DNA from: Pleomorphomonas sp. PLEO
GTDB taxonomy: Bacteria > Pseudomonadota > Alphaproteobacteria > Rhizobiales > Pleomorphomonadaceae
Assembly (NCBI RefSeq): GCF_041320595.1
Contig: NZ_CP166625.1
Span: 3,532,001-3,596,000, forward strand
DNA length: 64,000 bases
Direction: 5' to 3'
Positions within the stretch are counted from its first letter, which is position 1. The number at the start of each line of letters is the position of its first letter. The notes beneath the pieces were generated by a model, which did no database searches, had not been told where the DNA came from, and saw only the letters and a program-made list of their open reading frames with translations. The position numbers and the translations under genes are program-made. Shown here in pieces: positions 10,043 through 56,545 of this stretch.

Positions 10043-10489
10043 ATGACCGTCAAGTCGCCTAACCCAATAGATATTCATGTTGGTTCGCGCGTGCGCATGC
10101 GCCGACTTCTTGTCGGCATGAGCCAGGGAAAGCTGGCGGAGCAATTGGGCGTTACTTTCCAGCAGGTTCAAAAATACGAAAAGGGAACCAGTCGCATCAG
10201 TGCGTCCCGTCTTCAGACGATCGCTAATGTCTTCGAGGTTCCCGTAGGCTTCTTTTTCGAGAACATTGCCGGCCATTCGCACATTGATGGCGACCCATTG
10301 TCGGACGCCGTCGACACTACCCTGCTGACGCAGGACGGCATGGCCCTCAATAAGGCTTTCGTTCGCATCAGGAGAGCGAGAGTCAGAAGATCCATCATCG
10401 ATTTGGTGAAAATGCTCGCCGACGATGGCCAGACATCCGTCACCGATTTCACGGTTGGCGCTGAGATTCAAAGCCTTCGTTCCAACTGA
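10043..10489 (+). CDS. XRE-family helix-turn-helix regulator
   Basis: 148 residues. An XRE/Cro-type helix-turn-helix occupies residues 14-70: VRMRRLLVGMSQGKLAEQLG, then TFQQVQKYEKGTSRISASRL and FEVPVGFFFE. This is the rhizobial short HTH protein layout with a variable C-terminal tail. It is the first gene of a co-directional group leading into the SARP-type regulator, the small protein, YcaO and TfuA. It probably regulates its own operon. No operator could be picked out. Confidence 0.88.
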   Translation: MTVKSPNPIDIHVGSRVRMRRLLVGMSQGKLAEQLGVTFQQVQKYEKGTSRISASRLQTIANVFEVPVGFFFENIAGHSHIDGDPLSDAVDTTLLTQDGMALNKAFVRIRRARVRRSIIDLVKMLADDGQTSVTDFTVGAEIQSLRSN

Positions 10490-10524: not shown

Positions 10525-12492
10525 GTGCCCTTTGGACTGAAGACCTTCGGCGAGACGCGATTGATCGGATCCGACGGCCAGCTGGTCGCCTTTCCGGATA
10601 AGGGATTGCTTGCAATCGCTTTCTTGGAGTTTCGGCCATCTGGAAGAGTATCTCGGACTGAATTGGCGTCTTTTCTTTGGGGGGAGGGCAACGACGGCGG
10701 CGCCAAGGCGCTCGGCAATCTCCGTCAGCTGCTGTCGAGGATCAGGATACGTCAGCGAGAGCTTAAAGCGAACATCCTCGATATCCGTTCCTCCGAGATT
10801 GCTCTTTGTCGGGACGCTATCGGTTTTGATTTTGAAGACATGCAGCGGGGGTACTCGGAGGGGCCTGTTGAGCGCCTGGAGATCTTCCTGAAGATCTTAT
10901 CGGGGCAGTTTCTCGCCGATATCGATACATCGTCAGAAACGGGCCAGCTCTGGCTTCTGGAGCGGCGCGATTTCTGGTTGGCCGAATTTGCCACTGCGTT
11001 GGAAGAGGCGGCGGCTGCCCTTTCGCGCCAGAACAGCGTGTCGATCAAGACCGCGGCCGCGCGGCTCATCGAGCTGGACCCTTACAGCGATGTCGCCCAT
11101 CAGGTTCTGATGCGGGTCTATGCCAAGGATCGGAGGCTATCCCAGGCCCGGCTCATTTATGACCGCTACAAGCAGCAGCTCTGGTCCGAACTCAATACTC
11201 GGCCGTCCGAGGACATGCTTGGCTTTGCCCGACTGCTGTTCAACGATGAGGGACGGGCGGCTGTTACCGCCATGGAGCCAACCCCAGAGTGGGCTCAAGC
11301 GCGCCATCCGGAGCCGGCTTCAGCATTGCGCCCCCAATTGCCGCGCTTGCTGTTGCTGCCGCCAAGGCGCTCCGAGGAAAAGCGGAATTGGGCGCCCATT
11401 TCCGGGCTGATCGAAGACGTCACCATCGGTCTCTGTCGTATTCCGACCATGGCGATTGTAGCCCCCCATACCGCCAGGCGGATCGCCGGGATGGCTGGAG
11501 AGGAGGCCGATCTTCTGAAGCAGTTCGATGTTTCCTACGTTTTGGAGACGCGACTTCAGGAGCGGGGCGGAGAAACCGCCCTCTATGCAACGCTTGTCCA
11601 TGTTGCGAGCGATGGGGTTGTTTGGTCCGAGAAATTTCCTGGCCACCCGGACGATTTTCCGGACACCTACAATCAGCTTGTTGCCCGGATCGTGCTGGAG
11701 ACGGCAGGTTCGATCGCCAGAAAAGAGTTGGCGAAGATCCGCACCATCTCAAAGCCAACTGCCTATCAGAACTTTCTGCTCGGACAACATAGCCTCTCGG
11801 TTGCCGATCTGCCCGGTATTCGTCGGGCCCGAAAATTCTTCCGCGCAGCTCTTCACGACGCATCGCAATATGCCTCGGCAATTGCCGGTCTGGCGCGAAC
11901 GGAACACCTTGAGTGGCTCCTGACGGCACGCGGCGATGAAGAGTTGCTAAGTTCGGCGGAGGCCCACGCCCGCGACGCCATCCGCATTGGGGCCGACGAT
12001 GCCGGCGGCTATCATCAGCTGGGCGTCGCCAAGCTCTACCAAGGGCAGTTTTTCGAAAGCATGGAAGCCTTTCTCGAGGCTGAAAGCCGGGCTCCGTCGC
12101 ATGCCGACCTGCTTGCCGACCATGCTGATACGCTCGTGCACGCCGCCGATCCGATCCTCGCTCTCGACAAGATCAAACGAGCGATCGAACTCAACCCGCT
12201 ATGCCCCGATCTTTATTGGTGGACGGCGGCTGGTGCTAATTACTTTCTAGAGGAATATGGTGAGGCCATCGCTTGTATCGGCCGGATGGCCGACCAAGCC
12301 AATGCCGGAAGGCTGGCCGCGGCGGCCTACGCCATGCTTGGCGACCAACGAAGCGCCAAGAGAGAGATGCGCCGGACACTCGCGATCTATCCTGATTTCA
12401 CCATCGACGATTGGCTGATGAAGGTGCCGATCCGCGAGAAATGGAAGACGGACATGTTTCGAGACGGCATGCGGAAAGCGGGCTTCAAATAA
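10525..12492 (+). CDS. SARP/BTAD-type transcriptional regulator with TPR C-terminus
   Basis: 655 residues. Residues 1-95 resemble the winged-helix DNA-binding unit of OmpR/SARP regulators (RVSRTELASFLWG, ALGNLRQLLSRIR). Residues 100-235 match the bacterial transcriptional activator domain (FLADIDTSSE, LIELDPYSDVAHQVLMRVYA, ARLIYDRYKQQL). Residues 265-400 resemble the periplasmic/cytosolic middle region of CadC-like and TPR regulators (LLLLPPRR). Residues 410-640 form several TPR-like repeats. The start is GTG 10525 behind AGGA. It lies 35 bases after the XRE gene and 27 before the small-protein gene, so it probably controls this peptide-modification operon. SARP-type regulators often govern natural-product loci; that role here is inference. 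Confidence 0.82.
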   Translation: MPFGLKTFGETRLIGSDGQLVAFPDKGLLAIAFLEFRPSGRVSRTELASFLWGEGNDGGAKALGNLRQLLSRIRIRQRELKANILDIRSSEIALCRDAIGFDFEDMQRGYSEGPVERLEIFLKILSGQFLADIDTSSETGQLWLLERRDFWLAEFATALEEAAAALSRQNSVSIKTAAARLIELDPYSDVAHQVLMRVYAKDRRLSQARLIYDRYKQQLWSELNTRPSEDMLGFARLLFNDEGRAAVTAMEPTPEWAQARHPEPASALRPQLPRLLLLPPRRSEEKRNWAPISGLIEDVTIGLCRIPTMAIVAPHTARRIAGMAGEEADLLKQFDVSYVLETRLQERGGETALYATLVHVASDGVVWSEKFPGHPDDFPDTYNQLVARIVLETAGSIARKELAKIRTISKPTAYQNFLLGQHSLSVADLPGIRRARKFFRAALHDASQYASAIAGLARTEHLEWLLTARGDEELLSSAEAHARDAIRIGADDAGGYHQLGVAKLYQGQFFESMEAFLEAESRAPSHADLLADHADTLVHAADPILALDKIKRAIELNPLCPDLYWWTAAGANYFLEEYGEAIACIGRMADQANAGRLAAAAYAMLGDQRSAKREMRRTLAIYPDFTIDDWLMKVPIREKWKTDMFRDGMRKAGFK

Positions 12493-12519: not shown

Positions 12520-12780
12520 ATGGCTAAGTTGGCAGTTCTCGGTATCTCCGGCGAGTCCGGATATTGGTTGGTCGATTTTGAAAATGGCACGGTGTCAGCC
12601 CTGCCGGATTCCGCAAAGGAACCGTTCGATTTTTCCAAGACCGCCCGTGACAAGGGCGCGAAACTGGTCGCCGGTGTTGATCTTGCCGTGGCGCTCGACA
12701 GCGGCGATGAGGCCTTCGATGGCAAGGGCGAGGCTTTCTCGGGTCGCCTGAGTGCCTATTCTGGCCGTCTCAACGGGTAA
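12520..12780 (+). CDS. Small Cys-free protein, candidate YcaO/TfuA substrate
   Basis: 86 residues, no recognised family. A ribosome site GGAGAG lies 7 bases before the ATG. The N-terminal third (KLAVLGISGESGYWLVDF) looks like a short beta-hairpin. The middle is acidic and Asp/Lys-rich. The C-terminus FSGRLSAYSGRLNG repeats an aromatic-SGRL unit twice with different codons. There is no cysteine and there are several Ser and Gly residues at the end. Position directly before YcaO, with the YcaO GTG start lying inside its last codons, is where a precursor peptide or dedicated substrate would be expected. A small accessory or regulatory protein is the alternative. Confidence 0.72.
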   Translation: MAKLAVLGISGESGYWLVDFENGTVSALPDSAKEPFDFSKTARDKGAKLVAGVDLAVALDSGDEAFDGKGEAFSGRLSAYSGRLNG

Positions 12781-13999
12781 GGGCGCGTTCGGTCCGATAG
12801 AAGTGGCATCAAGCACACACACCTATTCGGACCGCATGTGCCGTCCGGAGGATACTTTGGTACGCGTGGCGTCGGCGCTCGCCGAGCACGGGGTCACGCG
12901 TCTTGCAAAGGTGACTGGGCTGGATTGCATCGGCATTCCGGTCTGGAATGCCATTCGCCCCAATGCCCGGGCGCTCTCGGTTCACCAAGGCAAAGGCATC
13001 TCGGATGTTGACGCCAAGGCGTCGGCCGTCATGGAAGCGCTTGAACGGGCGTGCGCCGAGCGGCCAAGTCTTCCCACGCGGATGACCTCGGCTGCAGAGC
13101 TGATCGCGAAAGGCAAATTCTGCGATGCTCTCGACGATCTCGTGGCGGCGGGTCACCACCCCAAGGATCGCGCCTGTCGCTTGGAGTGGGTCGAGGGGTA
13201 CGACCTGACGAGCGGCGAGGCGATCTGGGTTCCCTTGGAAGCGGTCCTTCTCGATTTTACCCGTTCCTCGCATTTTTGGCAGTCGTCCGACGGGCTAGCC
13301 TCCGGAAACACCGACCGGGAGGCGATCTTTCACGGCCTGCTCGAACGCATCGAGCGCGATGCCGATACCCTTTGGTCCCTTGAGCGTTTCGAGCGCCAAG
13401 CGGCAACATGCGTTTCAAGCGCCGATCTCAACGACGCCGTCGTGACCTTGCTGGTGGATCGCATAGAACGGGCCGGGTTCAGGCTGCAGCTTTTCGATAT
13501 GACCAGCGATCTCGGCGTGCCGACCTTCTCGGTTCTGCTCGCACCCGCCGACGCGTTATCGCGTCGATCCCTCCGATATATTGACATCACGATGGGGAGC
13601 GGCACGCATCCGGTTGCCTACCGCGCAGCGCTTCGGGCCATCACCGAAGCCGTTCAGTCGCGACTGACGCTGATTACCGGCACACGCGACGACGTCGAGG
13701 ACGATGTCTACGAGAGCCAAGCGTCCGAATTCCTTCTGCGTAAATTGCGACTTCGACCTCAGGCTCGCATCCCCCCCGACCTGTGCGTTCCGGGAGACGG
13801 AGTGGAGGCGATGCTGACGAGTGTTCTGGACAGACTCCGGGACCGCGGAATCGGTCGGATCATCGCAGTTCGGCTGAACCCCGGCGAAGACCGCTTTTCG
13901 GTGATAAAGGTGATCGTGTCCGGCTTGGAGCATCCCGATGGGCGCAGACAGCGTCGTTTTGGCGCAAGGGCTCTCTCGCGTCTTCTGGTGTTTCGATGA
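12752..13999 (+). CDS. YcaO-family cyclodehydratase/thioamidase
   Basis: Up to 415 residues. YcaO enzymes use ATP to phosphorylate a peptide amide and add a nucleophile. Seen: GLDCIGIPVWNAIRPNA, GKGISDVDAKASAVMEALERACAE (Glu-rich ATP/Mg site), IFHGLLERIERDADTLW and AYRAALRAITEAVQSR followed by ITGTRDDV. These are the conserved nucleotide-binding blocks. The C-terminus lacks the proline-rich PxPxP tail of azoline-forming YcaOs, and the next gene is tfuA, as in thioamide-forming pairs. GTG 12752 overlaps the small-protein gene by 29 bases; GTG 12801 is an alternative start that keeps all motifs. The substrate is unknown. Confidence 0.88.
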   Translation: MPILAVSTGKGAFGPIEVASSTHTYSDRMCRPEDTLVRVASALAEHGVTRLAKVTGLDCIGIPVWNAIRPNARALSVHQGKGISDVDAKASAVMEALERACAERPSLPTRMTSAAELIAKGKFCDALDDLVAAGHHPKDRACRLEWVEGYDLTSGEAIWVPLEAVLLDFTRSSHFWQSSDGLASGNTDREAIFHGLLERIERDADTLWSLERFERQAATCVSSADLNDAVVTLLVDRIERAGFRLQLFDMTSDLGVPTFSVLLAPADALSRRSLRYIDITMGSGTHPVAYRAALRAITEAVQSRLTLITGTRDDVEDDVYESQASEFLLRKLRLRPQARIPPDLCVPGDGVEAMLTSVLDRLRDRGIGRIIAVRLNPGEDRFSVIKVIVSGLEHPDGRRQRRFGARALSRLLVFR

Positions 14000-14700
14000 A
14001 GGTCATATTCATCGGTCCATCGCTTCACGGAGCGGAGGCGCGTGCTCCTGCCGGCGCGGCGCTTCGCCCACCCGCGGCCAAAGGTGACCTATACCGGGCT
14101 GTGGAGGAGGGTGCCGACGTCATCGGTCTCGTCGACGGTTATTTCGAAGCGACGGCGGCGGTTTGGCACAAGGAAATCCTCCATGCCTTGTCGTGTGGTG
14201 TGCGCATGTTTGGCGCGGCGAGCATCGGCGCGTTGAGGGCAGCCGAATGCGCCGCGTTCGGCATGACCGGAATTGGAGCTATTTACGAAGCCTATGCCAA
14301 CGGCCAACTGGAGGACGACTCCGAGGTTGCGCTGTTACACGCGCCAAAGGAGCTCGCCTATCTGCCGCTGTCGGAACCTCTGGTCAACGTGAGAGCCACG
14401 CTCAACCATCTGCTACTGGCCGATCTCATTGCCGAGCATCAATCCCAGGCGCTGATCACAACGGCTTCGTCGATCTTCTACAAGGAACGGACCTGGAGGA
14501 TGATCCTTGCCGCGGCGGCGCTGTCGCCCGACGAACGCATGCATATCAGTGGACTGGTGCGGACATTTCGCGTTGACCAGAAAATGATCGATGCGGTGGC
14601 GCTGTTGAAGGCGGTGGAGCTCGAAGCCGACGCCCGATCGAAGCAGTCCCCGGCTTGGGACTTCTCGCATACGTCCTATTTCCAGACGCTTGCTACCTAG
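13996..14700 (+). CDS. tfuA: TfuA-like YcaO partner protein
   Basis: 234 residues. TfuA-like core: VIFIGPSLHGAEAR at the N terminus, PPAAKGDLYRAVEEGADVIG, VDGYFEATAAVWHKEILHAL, the Gly/Ala-rich FGAASIGALRAAECAAFGM and GIGAIYEAYANG. In thioviridamide biosynthesis and in methanogen McrA modification, a TfuA protein works with YcaO to install thioamides, probably in sulfur delivery. The ATG overlaps the YcaO stop (ATGA at 13996-13999), so the two are translationally coupled. A longer in-frame extension upstream lies wholly inside YcaO and is not used. Confidence 0.9.
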   Translation: MKVIFIGPSLHGAEARAPAGAALRPPAAKGDLYRAVEEGADVIGLVDGYFEATAAVWHKEILHALSCGVRMFGAASIGALRAAECAAFGMTGIGAIYEAYANGQLEDDSEVALLHAPKELAYLPLSEPLVNVRATLNHLLLADLIAEHQSQALITTASSIFYKERTWRMILAAAALSPDERMHISGLVRTFRVDQKMIDAVALLKAVELEADARSKQSPAWDFSHTSYFQTLAT

Positions 14701-14773: not shown

Positions 14774-14798
14774 TTTGTAGGCAATGAAGGGGATCGAG

Positions 14799-15029
14799 AT
14801 GCTGGATAGAACCATCGACAAGGCCATTGTGGCCGATTCGGAGGAGTTCGCGGCCCTCGCGCGGTTGATCATCTATGCGCGCCAAACGTCCAAGACGTTG
14901 AATGCCGAGTTCACGTCCTATTGCCTCGACCTCGCGCTGGCGGCGGTCATCGACGAGATGGAAAAAGCCGGTTTCGACACCTCCATCATGGCTCCGAACG
15001 CAGAAGCGGTGATCGGCGAACTTCACTGA
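14799..15029 (+). CDS. Small protein of unknown function downstream of tfuA
   Basis: 76 residues if translated from ATG 14799, which has AAGGGG 7 bases upstream; an in-frame ATG at 14784 lacks such spacing. The sequence is predicted largely helical (EEFAALARLIIYARQTSK, SYCLDLALAAVIDEMEKAGF) with one Cys. It is not recognised as any family. It lies about 100 bases after tfuA and right before a strong terminator, so it may be the last gene of the YcaO-TfuA transcription unit (partner, immunity or unrelated). Codon use matches its neighbours. Confidence 0.62.
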   Translation: MLDRTIDKAIVADSEEFAALARLIIYARQTSKTLNAEFTSYCLDLALAAVIDEMEKAGFDTSIMAPNAEAVIGELH

Positions 15030-53848: not shown

Positions 53849-54115
53849 ATGGCCATTCTGGAGAAGATCAAAGTCGAGATCTCTGTCGTGCTCGGCGGGC
53901 AGACCATGCCGATCCATCAGCTGTTGCGGATGGGACGTGGCGCGGTGATCGAGCTGGACCATTCGGCCGACGATGACGTCGATATCCTCGCCAACAACCT
54001 GCCGGTCGCAAAGGGGCAGGTGGTGTTGAAGGGGGACCGCGTGACCGTGTCCATCACCGAAGTCCTGGCTCGCCCCGCGTCCTACCGCCGTGTCGACGAT
54101 GTTGTGAAGATCTAA
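53849..54115 (+). CDS. FliN/SpoA-domain flagellar motor switch-like protein
   Basis: 88 residues from ATG 53849. Essentially one SpoA domain: KIKVEISVVLGGQTMPIHQL, LRMGRGAVIELDH, VDILANNLPVAKGQVVLKGD, RVTVSITEVL. This is the FliN C-ring fold (FliN ~ 100-150 residues). No other flagellar gene is in the window, so it is isolated here. It may be the motor FliN located apart from the main cluster or an extra SpoA protein. Confidence 0.85.
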   Translation: MAILEKIKVEISVVLGGQTMPIHQLLRMGRGAVIELDHSADDDVDILANNLPVAKGQVVLKGDRVTVSITEVLARPASYRRVDDVVKI

Positions 54116-54242
54116 GGAATTTTCCCGGATTCCAGCCGTTTTTCCGATGCTGGCAAAATTCTTCTTGCCTGCCTCTTGTGCCCCGGAGAATCTCTTGCTA
54201 GATACCCGGCGCCGGCCCGGAAGGGGTGGCACCTACCACGAT

Positions 54243-54327
54243 GCGGTCGTGGCGGAATTGGTAGACGCGCAGCGTTGAGGTCGCTGTGTCGCAAGACGTG
54301 GAAGTTCGAGTCTTCTCGACCGCACCA
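54243..54327 (+). tRNA. tRNA-Leu (GAG)
   Basis: Class II tRNA: acceptor GCGGTCG pairs with CGACCGC, D-loop with GG of AATTGGTAGAC, anticodon stem-loop CAGCG TTGAGGT CGCTG reading GAG, long variable arm, T-arm loop TTCGAGT, discriminator A and encoded CCA at 54325-54327. Confidence 0.95.
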
Positions 54328-54330
54328 TTC

Positions 54331-54364
54331 AAAAAAGCCAGGCTCGTAAGTGCCTGGTTTTTTT
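54331..54364 (+). terminator. Terminator after tRNA-Leu
   Basis: AAAAAAG then CCAGGC (54338-54343) pairing with GCCTGG (54352-54357), then a run of seven T. The A-run can extend the stem. Confidence 0.9.
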
Positions 54365-54979
54365 ATGCCTTCCGGAATCTGGACTAGCTGATCTCTTGTA
54401 AACGCTCCAGACGCGCCTTGACTGCCCAGACATGGCGATGAGCTCAGAAGAGCTGCATCCTACTATCTTTCAATAGATAGAAATAAAATCCTTAGCTTAC
54501 ATCCGCGATAAAGAGATCCGCGTAGGGCAGCACACCGAATCCAAGCGATTTATTCATTGCTCATCCACAGTCGCCCACCGAATTTTACTTTATAATTACT
54601 CATCAATAACCGGACTGTAAGTTAAAATCCTTCAAATTATCCGAATGATATATTTAACGGAATATAGGTTGCCTTGATTGAAATACGATCTACTTCTCTA
54701 CGAAATCCGAAATTATCGATTTCAGAACAAAGGGTTAGTCGACAGTCGACTTATCCTCCATCGATTTTCGCCAAGTAGTCTATATGCCAAAGCACCATAT
54801 TTATCTGTGGGTTATGGCCACGACGAGGGTCTCGGCCAAAAGTGCCTAGTCGGATCGTAAATCATTAATTAATTCGACGCGTCCATATAAATTATGCTTG
54901 TTGGGATTTTGATTTTTTGTATCTATCAATTCATGTGCAACGCGGTGCGGATCGCGAATGCATGGAGAGAGGTGAGAAA
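54365..54979. other. AT-rich non-coding stretch before the GGDEF-EAL gene
   Basis: 615 bases, clearly AT-richer than the rest of the window, especially 54470-54910. Contains a perfect short palindrome CTATCT-N6-AGATAG near 54463. No convincing gene and no copy of the tRNA-Leu 3' end was found. It holds the promoter of the downstream signalling gene. Confidence 0.5.
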
Positions 54980-56545
54980 ATGCGGCTTTTCAGGGTGGGA
55001 AGAGCAACCCGAGATGCAGCAGCTCTCATTTTCATCGGTGTTTTGCTTTTCGTTGGCTGCGAGTGGCTCAATCTTTATGAGAATCTCGCAGCACTTCTGC
55101 GAAAATACGAGTATCTTCAGGCTGATGAACTGCTTCTCGCGCTGCTAATTGTCGGTTTTCTGGGCTTCGCTTTCGGTTATCGCCGGCTTCACGATCTGAA
55201 GGTAGAGATGGCTCACCGCAGACGCGCCGAACGCGACGTATCCTGGATCGCAGCTCATGACCCCCTAACGCGTCTTCCCAACCGCATTGGTCTCAAGCAA
55301 GAGGTCGAACGCCTGCGAGCGAGCAACAACGTCGGCAAGCCCCACTTGGCCATGGTAATCGATATCCATGGATTTAAATATATTAACGACATATACGGAA
55401 ATGAGATTAGCGACGAAATACTGGTGGTCGTTGCAGACAGGCTACGTGAAATTTTTGTTGGCGGCTATCTGTTCAGACTAGGCGGCGACCAATTCTATGC
55501 CTCGCAAGAGGGTTCATTGACGAGGGATTGGGAAAAGCTCGCGCGCCGAACTATCAAGCAGATATCCACCCCAATTCTGATTGGTGACCGTAGCTACGAA
55601 GTCTCCGCCTATATCGGGATGGCTCGATATCCCGATGACGCCGCCAATATCAAATATCTTCTTCGATGCGCACTCTCCGCGGCTTCGTTTGCGAAAAGAG
55701 AGCATTCCAACGATCCTAAATGGTTTGATCCGGCTATCGATGAAGCGACAGCCAAATACGCTGATCTGGACAAACAGTTGCGTGCCGCGCTCAAGTCTGG
55801 CGAAGTGAACCCTTATTATCAGCCGATGATCGATTTGACGTCTGGTCGCATTGTCGGATTTGAAGCCCTGGCGCGCTGGCGCCGTCCCGATGGTACCTTC
55901 GTTCCCCCATCGGAGTTCATCGCCCTGGCTGAAGAGACCGGCATGATTGGCGAGCTCTCGGACGTGCTGTTCCGTCAGGCGTGTAGGGACGCCGCTAAAT
56001 GGCCTCGCGCCGTGAGGCTGTCATTTAACGTCTCGCCGGCCCAGTTCAGCAACCGAAGCTTCGGACGAAAAATGCTGGAAACACTTGCGGAAACGGGCCT
56101 TTCCCCCAGTCAGCTCGAGGTGGAGGTTACCGAGTCGATGTTCGTCAAAGACGTGCAGCTCGTAGCCGTTTTGCTCGACGAGCTCAGAGAGGCGGGGGTT
56201 CACATCGCCATTGACGACTTCGGGACCGGCTATTCCAGTCTATCGCAGCTGTCGCGTTTGAGATTTGACAAGCTGAAGATCGATCGGAGCTTCGTGTCGT
56301 CCTTCCTGGACGACGCGAGACAGGCCATGATCATACGAGCGATGATTGGCCTTGGTCGAGGACTAGGAATGAAGACCATTGCCGAGGGAATTGAAGAGGC
56401 ATCCCAGGCCGAGACGCTTCAATTGCTTGGTTGTCATCAGGGGCAGGGGTTCTTGTTCAGCCGCGCAGTCCCCGCCGAACAGGCAATGGGTCTGCTTCAA
56501 ACGACTTGGCCTGTGCGCTCGGAAGATAAAACAGCAATAAACTAG
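54980..56545 (+). CDS. Membrane GGDEF-EAL cyclic-di-GMP signalling protein
   Basis: 521 residues from ATG 54980, behind a long GA-rich ribosome site; an upstream in-frame start is not favoured. Two N-terminal membrane segments (AALIFIGVLLFVGCEWL, LLLALLIVGFLGFAFGY). The GGDEF domain (about 95-245) has HDPLTRLPNR but a degenerate active site, GGDQF. The EAL domain (270-510) keeps FEALARW, NVS, EVTES, DDFGTGYSS, KIDRSF and the late AEGIEE/QGQGF residues. Likely a c-di-GMP phosphodiesterase with a regulatory GGDEF. Lower GC at its 5' end. Confidence 0.92.
   Translation: MRLFRVGRATRDAAALIFIGVLLFVGCEWLNLYENLAALLRKYEYLQADELLLALLIVGFLGFAFGYRRLHDLKVEMAHRRRAERDVSWIAAHDPLTRLPNRIGLKQEVERLRASNNVGKPHLAMVIDIHGFKYINDIYGNEISDEILVVVADRLREIFVGGYLFRLGGDQFYASQEGSLTRDWEKLARRTIKQISTPILIGDRSYEVSAYIGMARYPDDAANIKYLLRCALSAASFAKREHSNDPKWFDPAIDEATAKYADLDKQLRAALKSGEVNPYYQPMIDLTSGRIVGFEALARWRRPDGTFVPPSEFIALAEETGMIGELSDVLFRQACRDAAKWPRAVRLSFNVSPAQFSNRSFGRKMLETLAETGLSPSQLEVEVTESMFVKDVQLVAVLLDELREAGVHIAIDDFGTGYSSLSQLSRLRFDKLKIDRSFVSSFLDDARQAMIIRAMIGLGRGLGMKTIAEGIEEASQAETLQLLGCHQGQGFLFSRAVPAEQAMGLLQTTWPVRSEDKTAIN

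Follow-up and report, generated by a model that had tools for sequence, protein, structure and literature searches.

The stretch of DNA analyzed here (hereafter the window; 64,000 nucleotides of Pleomorphomonas sp. PLEO, contig NZ_CP166625.1) carries an 86-residue open reading frame (ORF) followed by genes for a YcaO and a TfuA protein. The question raised by this locus was whether the small ORF is a precursor gene for a ribosomally synthesized and post-translationally modified peptide (RiPP), as the initial annotation had proposed, and which modification such a precursor would receive. YcaO and TfuA are a pair known to introduce sulfur into the backbone of peptides, and TfuA has been described as a hydrolase that helps in the transfer of sulfide equivalents (PMC13063428). 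The usual order of the cassette was HTH, SARP/TPR regulator, precursor, YcaO, TfuA, and small helical protein, and in the window the features were located as follows.

10043..10489, + strand: XRE-type HTH protein, first gene of the cassette (HTH_3, E 1.2e-13)
10525..12492, + strand: SARP-type regulator with BTAD and TPR regions (PF03704 BTAD, E 2e-6; TPR_2); start uncertain
12520..12780, + strand: candidate RiPP precursor gene, 86 aa; front half (residues 1 to ~60) conserved, tail variable
12736..12750, + strand: core-like repeat 1, FSGRL, residues 73-77 (TTC TCG GGT CGC CTG)
12757..12771, + strand: core-like repeat 2, YSGRL, residues 80-84 (TAT TCT GGC CGT CTC)
12803..13999, + strand: YcaO (PF02624, E 2.2e-64); likely GTG start at 12803
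13996..14700, + strand: TfuA (PF07812, E 2.9e-45); start codon overlapping the stop codon of YcaO (ATGA)
14784..15029, + strand: small protein downstream of TfuA; start codon uncertain

The YcaO start was placed at 12803 because the GTG is conserved there; the mechanically called ORF begins at 12752.

The small ORF was present as first described, with no Cys among its 86 residues and with FSGRL and YSGRL seven residues apart near the C-terminus. The reported difference in codon usage between the two copies also held, as each of the four shared residues is encoded by a different codon in the second copy. The front half, residues 1 to ~60, reads MAK.AVLG..GE.GYWLVDFENGTV...GVDLAVAL, and the tail, which contains three Ser and neither Cys nor Thr, reads EAFSGRLSAYSGRLNG. 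A ribosome-binding-like sequence, GAGGAG, lies just 5' of the ATG and is shared by all nine Pleomorphomonas copies. All nine also have in common a short CGGTCCG sequence in the gap that separates the precursor stop codon from YcaO (window 12781-12803). By itself, the repeat in the window was suggestive only, because a repeated 4-mer also arose in 10% of shuffles of the whole peptide and in 0.8% when the last 26 residues alone were shuffled; comparison with homologues is what made the case for it strong.

Close copies of the precursor were present in Pleomorphomonas, and the second repeat, YSGR[L/F], was invariant among them, with YSGR in 9/9 sequences. The first copy had decayed in three of the nine (to SSGRL, FSRHL, and SYGHL), and equal constraint on the two copies was therefore rejected. 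The ratio pN/pS was 0.11 for the front 60 residues, which are under strong purifying selection, versus 0.26 for the tail.

Beyond the genus, a precursor profile used with a permissive threshold matched 57 of the 397 genomes of the order, and the better of these matches shared the SARP-precursor-YcaO-TfuA context. Matches were found in 39 of 248 genomes of one family (f23), probably Rhizobiaceae to judge from named plasmid matches, whereas a class-level sample of 385 genomes yielded, at E 0.001, the window's own genome as its sole match. On these profile matches the precursor family spans the order of the window genome, which named members indicate to be Rhizobiales/Hyphomicrobiales. The first 60 residues were recognizable among homologues (MAKxVVIGLxGExGLW.ADLxAGTV...GVDLAV), while the tails differed. 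The alignment of homologues that the initial annotation had suggested thus revealed a leader that is conserved across the order and a tail that varies or carries repeats. The window precursor gave zero matches to Pfam or NCBIfam models, including the Nif11 and NHLP leader models, and 20 homologues compared with leader models gave scattered, chance matches of single members. A PADLOC scan returned no match relevant to the cassette and left the precursor uncovered, searching PDB chains with a profile of the family returned chance-like matches only (designed proteins, globins), and an AlphaFold prediction for the precursor (mean pLDDT 42) gave no useful structural information. Many genes of the family carry the label "hypothetical protein" or no annotation, and the precursor represents a new, previously unnamed family of a known RiPP kind.

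Among 64 genomes scanned, YcaO and TfuA were encoded in all 58 precursor-bearing genomes checked. Six genomes had no precursor in the profile search; five of these lacked both enzymes, and the sixth, G003, had both, together with a divergent precursor that was recognized on inspection. In 37 of 39 f23 genomes, the distance from a precursor to the YcaO gene downstream of it was no more than ~1.1 kb. Precursors without a nearby YcaO, which the initial annotation had regarded as evidence against its reading, occurred at locus L091, in genomes G396 and G041, and as the second precursors of G399 and G405. That these lone precursors break the link with YcaO was rejected for G396, G041, G399, and G405, in which YcaO and TfuA are encoded at another place in the genome. 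In G041, SARP and precursor were on one contig and HTH, YcaO, TfuA, and the small protein on another; in G396, SARP and precursor were at one place and HTH, a SARP remnant, YcaO, and TfuA at another; and G439 had HTH, SARP, precursor, YcaO, and the small protein plus a separate HTH-TfuA pair. For Sinorhizobium meliloti Ak57 (CP090106), no TfuA was detected beside YcaO, and a TfuA gene was located on CP090105, a second large replicon of neighboring accession that probably belongs to the same strain. These split, complementary loci look like a single functional set that is separable, with SARP and precursor kept together. The HTH gene, conserved in most loci, accompanied YcaO and TfuA where loci were split. 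At L091 (8001-9205; Rhizobium tumorigenes plasmid NZ_CP117260.1), SARP and a precursor with the core-like ASGFLDG occurred without YcaO. A metallo-hydrolase of the MBL fold and other enzymes follow the precursor there, a possible alternative tailoring context. With the leader/tail division, the adjoining YcaO and TfuA, and this co-occurrence, the proposed identity of the ORF gained support, and it is very probably a precursor for the YcaO-TfuA pair.

Homologue tails held one to ~7 copies of short, lineage-specific repeats, including FSGQFD (two copies), SGGF[L/F]E (four), FSGKL[E/D] (four), GGYMD (three), [A/N/S]GLHE (three), and [S/G]GLFERSE (six, with a degenerate seventh). Single-copy tails, such as SGHVDG and SGLFD, also exist. 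In genus g200, the second precursor of L123 and of L124 carried ~4-6 copies of RSDPSDRAFSF; L122, L123, and L124 each have a tandem pair of precursor genes ahead of YcaO. Many units fit [S/A/G]-G-x-hydrophobic-[D/E], and the strict motif [SAG]G.[FLMVYI][DE] was counted 58 times in 56 tails versus 2.6 expected, and zero times in leaders, a ratio that overstates significance because the motif was chosen after the tails had been inspected. The 58 do not include the repeats of the window, which end in S or N, and the independent repeat arrays do not rest on this motif. In most arrays the copies diverged mainly at synonymous codons, whereas the DNA copies in G003 were nearly identical, and thus recent, and the arrays of L074 and L124 showed much amino-acid divergence as well. 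The G003 array, from the window's own family, consists of four copies of ESLSAASSHNWGEPVRGGDMAVA with the leader end AVAS inside the repeat. This precursor (L127, 3583-4050, - strand) is 155 residues long with a unit of 24 residues, and its sequence suggests that a recognition element is repeated with each core. The second L074 precursor likewise repeats its leader end, in three longer repeats. At L074 (9001-14603; Rhizobium rhizogenes plasmid pC5.7c), two precursor-YcaO units stand side by side, and the TfuA match in the first spans residues 2-122 only.

The chemistry was approached through the enzymes. The nearest enzyme families and structures were those of YcaO/TfuA thioamidation of McrA glycine in methanogens (TIGR03266, NF033432; PMC5589413). 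The window YcaO scored 226.7 bits against TIGR03266 (cut-off 365) and 117.3 against the TOMM SagD model, and TfuA scored 190.9 bits against NF033432 (cut-off 235.2); as both fell below the NCBIfam equivalog cut-offs, the family assignment does not prove the exact reaction, and the substrate proposed here is a small precursor, not McrA. Among solved chains, YcaO was nearest to MJ1094 (6pe3, E 6.7e-36), with the cyclodehydratases LynD and TruD far weaker, and TfuA to 6xp8 (E 3.2e-35). Given the presence of TfuA and these nearest YcaO families, the modification is likely a thioamide. The motif Gly or its neighbor could carry it, a tentative placement, since some homologues (L019, L062, and the RSDPSDRAFSF and ESLSAASSHNW types) are without that Gly; for the same reason no residue can be named as universally modified. 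The absence of Cys had been taken to leave thioamide or oxazoline as options, which fits the window peptide and does not extend to the family, as Cys does occur in L033, L123, and the second precursor of L074.

We consider it probable that the locus directs the synthesis of short thioamidated peptides from a multi-core tail, in an organization like that of the thiovarsolins. The conserved front half of ~60 residues would serve as the leader recognized by the YcaO-TfuA pair, and the tail would be a modular core, with two aromatic-S-G-R-L copies here and one to ~7 other units in relatives. YcaO and TfuA would exchange one backbone oxygen for sulfur in every unit, perhaps at the Gly or the residue beside it. 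As the cassette has no conserved protease or exporter of its own, short, presumably active peptides may be released at putative cleavage sites by housekeeping peptidases, as proposed for thiovarsolin, and the upstream SARP/TPR regulator would control the operon.

In thiovarsolin biosynthesis, precursor, YcaO, and TfuA form the minimal sufficient set, and precursors of that family range from non-repeating to five repeats (PMC6511847). The Streptomyces system (VarA/VarY/VarT, PMC6511847) resembles the window family in its imperfect tandem core repeats and in having no dedicated protease. The two differ in that the thiovarsolin core is APR/GPR (PMC6511847), both absent from the window tail, and in that thiovarsolins are from Actinobacteria and involve a heme oxygenase and an amidinotransferase absent from the window cassette. 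The heme oxygenase VarO is needed for the dehydro forms of thiovarsolin, and a Pfam scan of the cassette and flanking genes found none. Unlike thiovarsolins, the window family has a conserved SARP/TPR regulator, HTH protein, and small helical protein, with a front half conserved across an order. Homologues of the small protein (~71-82 aa) were present at the equivalent position in many other genera; it matched no Pfam or NCBIfam family, and its identity within Pleomorphomonas (91-98%) exceeded that of TfuA (72-81%). Trifolitoxin and phazolicin, azole RiPPs of rhizobia, are likewise YcaO-type products from this group, and the name TfuA originates from work on the trifolitoxin strain T24 (PMC9670871); the window precursor differs by having no Cys, and azole partner genes were not seen. 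Nor does the window tail have the Cys/Ser/Thr-rich core of LAP/TOMM peptides, and no E1-like or Ocin-ThiF partner was found in the genes scanned.

The alternative that survived best concerns the role of the peptide. The repeat, modified by YcaO and TfuA, could be an intracellular ligand sensed by the SARP/TPR protein and not a secreted product, an explanation that overlaps the preferred one, sharing its chemistry and differing in role. The regulator lay directly upstream of the precursor in the window and in homologous loci, including those without YcaO; it has a TPR region at its C-terminus, and no exporter or protease recurred beside the cassette in annotated loci. This adjacency may, however, mean just transcriptional control of the operon, and we regard the ligand role as unlikely, although a secreted peptide and an internal SARP signal are both compatible with the data. 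The AlphaFold model of the regulator (mean pLDDT 46) was too poor for fold comparison. More speculative still, and doubtful, is a rhizobial system of peptide signaling in which thioamidated units, excised intracellularly, act as lineage-specific ligands of SARP/TPR proteins. If true, it would explain the constant adjacency of SARP and precursor, the missing conserved exporter, and the fast turnover of cores.

A second alternative accepts the ORF as a YcaO substrate and expects a different product, with YcaO forming an amidine or oxazolines at Ser. Azolines and macroamidines are also known products of YcaO enzymes (PMC6511847), and Ser is common among the cores. Against this, TfuA adjoins YcaO, the nearest solved YcaO is MJ1094 and not a cyclodehydratase, and the GGYMD and GLHE units contain no Ser, Thr, or Cys. 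Oxazoline was also ranked as less likely since Pfam detected neither an E1-like or Ocin-ThiF partner nor a dehydrogenase in the cassette and flanking genes scanned; overall, a non-thioamide product appeared improbable. That the ORF encodes an ordinary conserved protein, such as a partner of the regulator, with repeats due to chance or low-complexity slippage, was very hard to sustain, for although a repeated 4-mer is not rare by itself, the motif excess in tails, the independent repeat types of each lineage, the mainly synonymous divergence of copies, and the strict co-occurrence with YcaO and TfuA strongly disfavored it.

Thioamidated RiPPs known from TfuA-YcaO clusters are all from Actinobacteria, while most TfuA clusters are proteobacterial, according to a TfuA survey (PMC8120280), which puts the number of TfuA clusters in Rhizobium above 500 and distinguishes 797 precursor families across all phyla. 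The survey's main text describes no repeat-bearing precursor family from Rhizobiales, and the window family may already be among the survey's unnamed families. In the literature searched, limited to open-licence texts, no TfuA precursor with repeated cores from Rhizobiales was found. The family offers concrete precursors, with a recognizable leader and cores that can be read as repeats, and the precursor profile fills a gap left by annotators. Cultured hosts exist, such as Pleomorphomonas diazotrophica, Rhizobium, and Sinorhizobium, and the tandem copies provide a natural series of substrates for studying recognition and sulfur placement by YcaO and TfuA. The genes flanking the cassette in the window are sugar-transport, carbohydrate-kinase, and AraC genes, none of RiPP type. 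Farther away, the G+C fraction dips to 0.505 at window positions 54001-56000, overlapping a GGDEF/EAL-type ORF (54917-56545) that looks ordinary.
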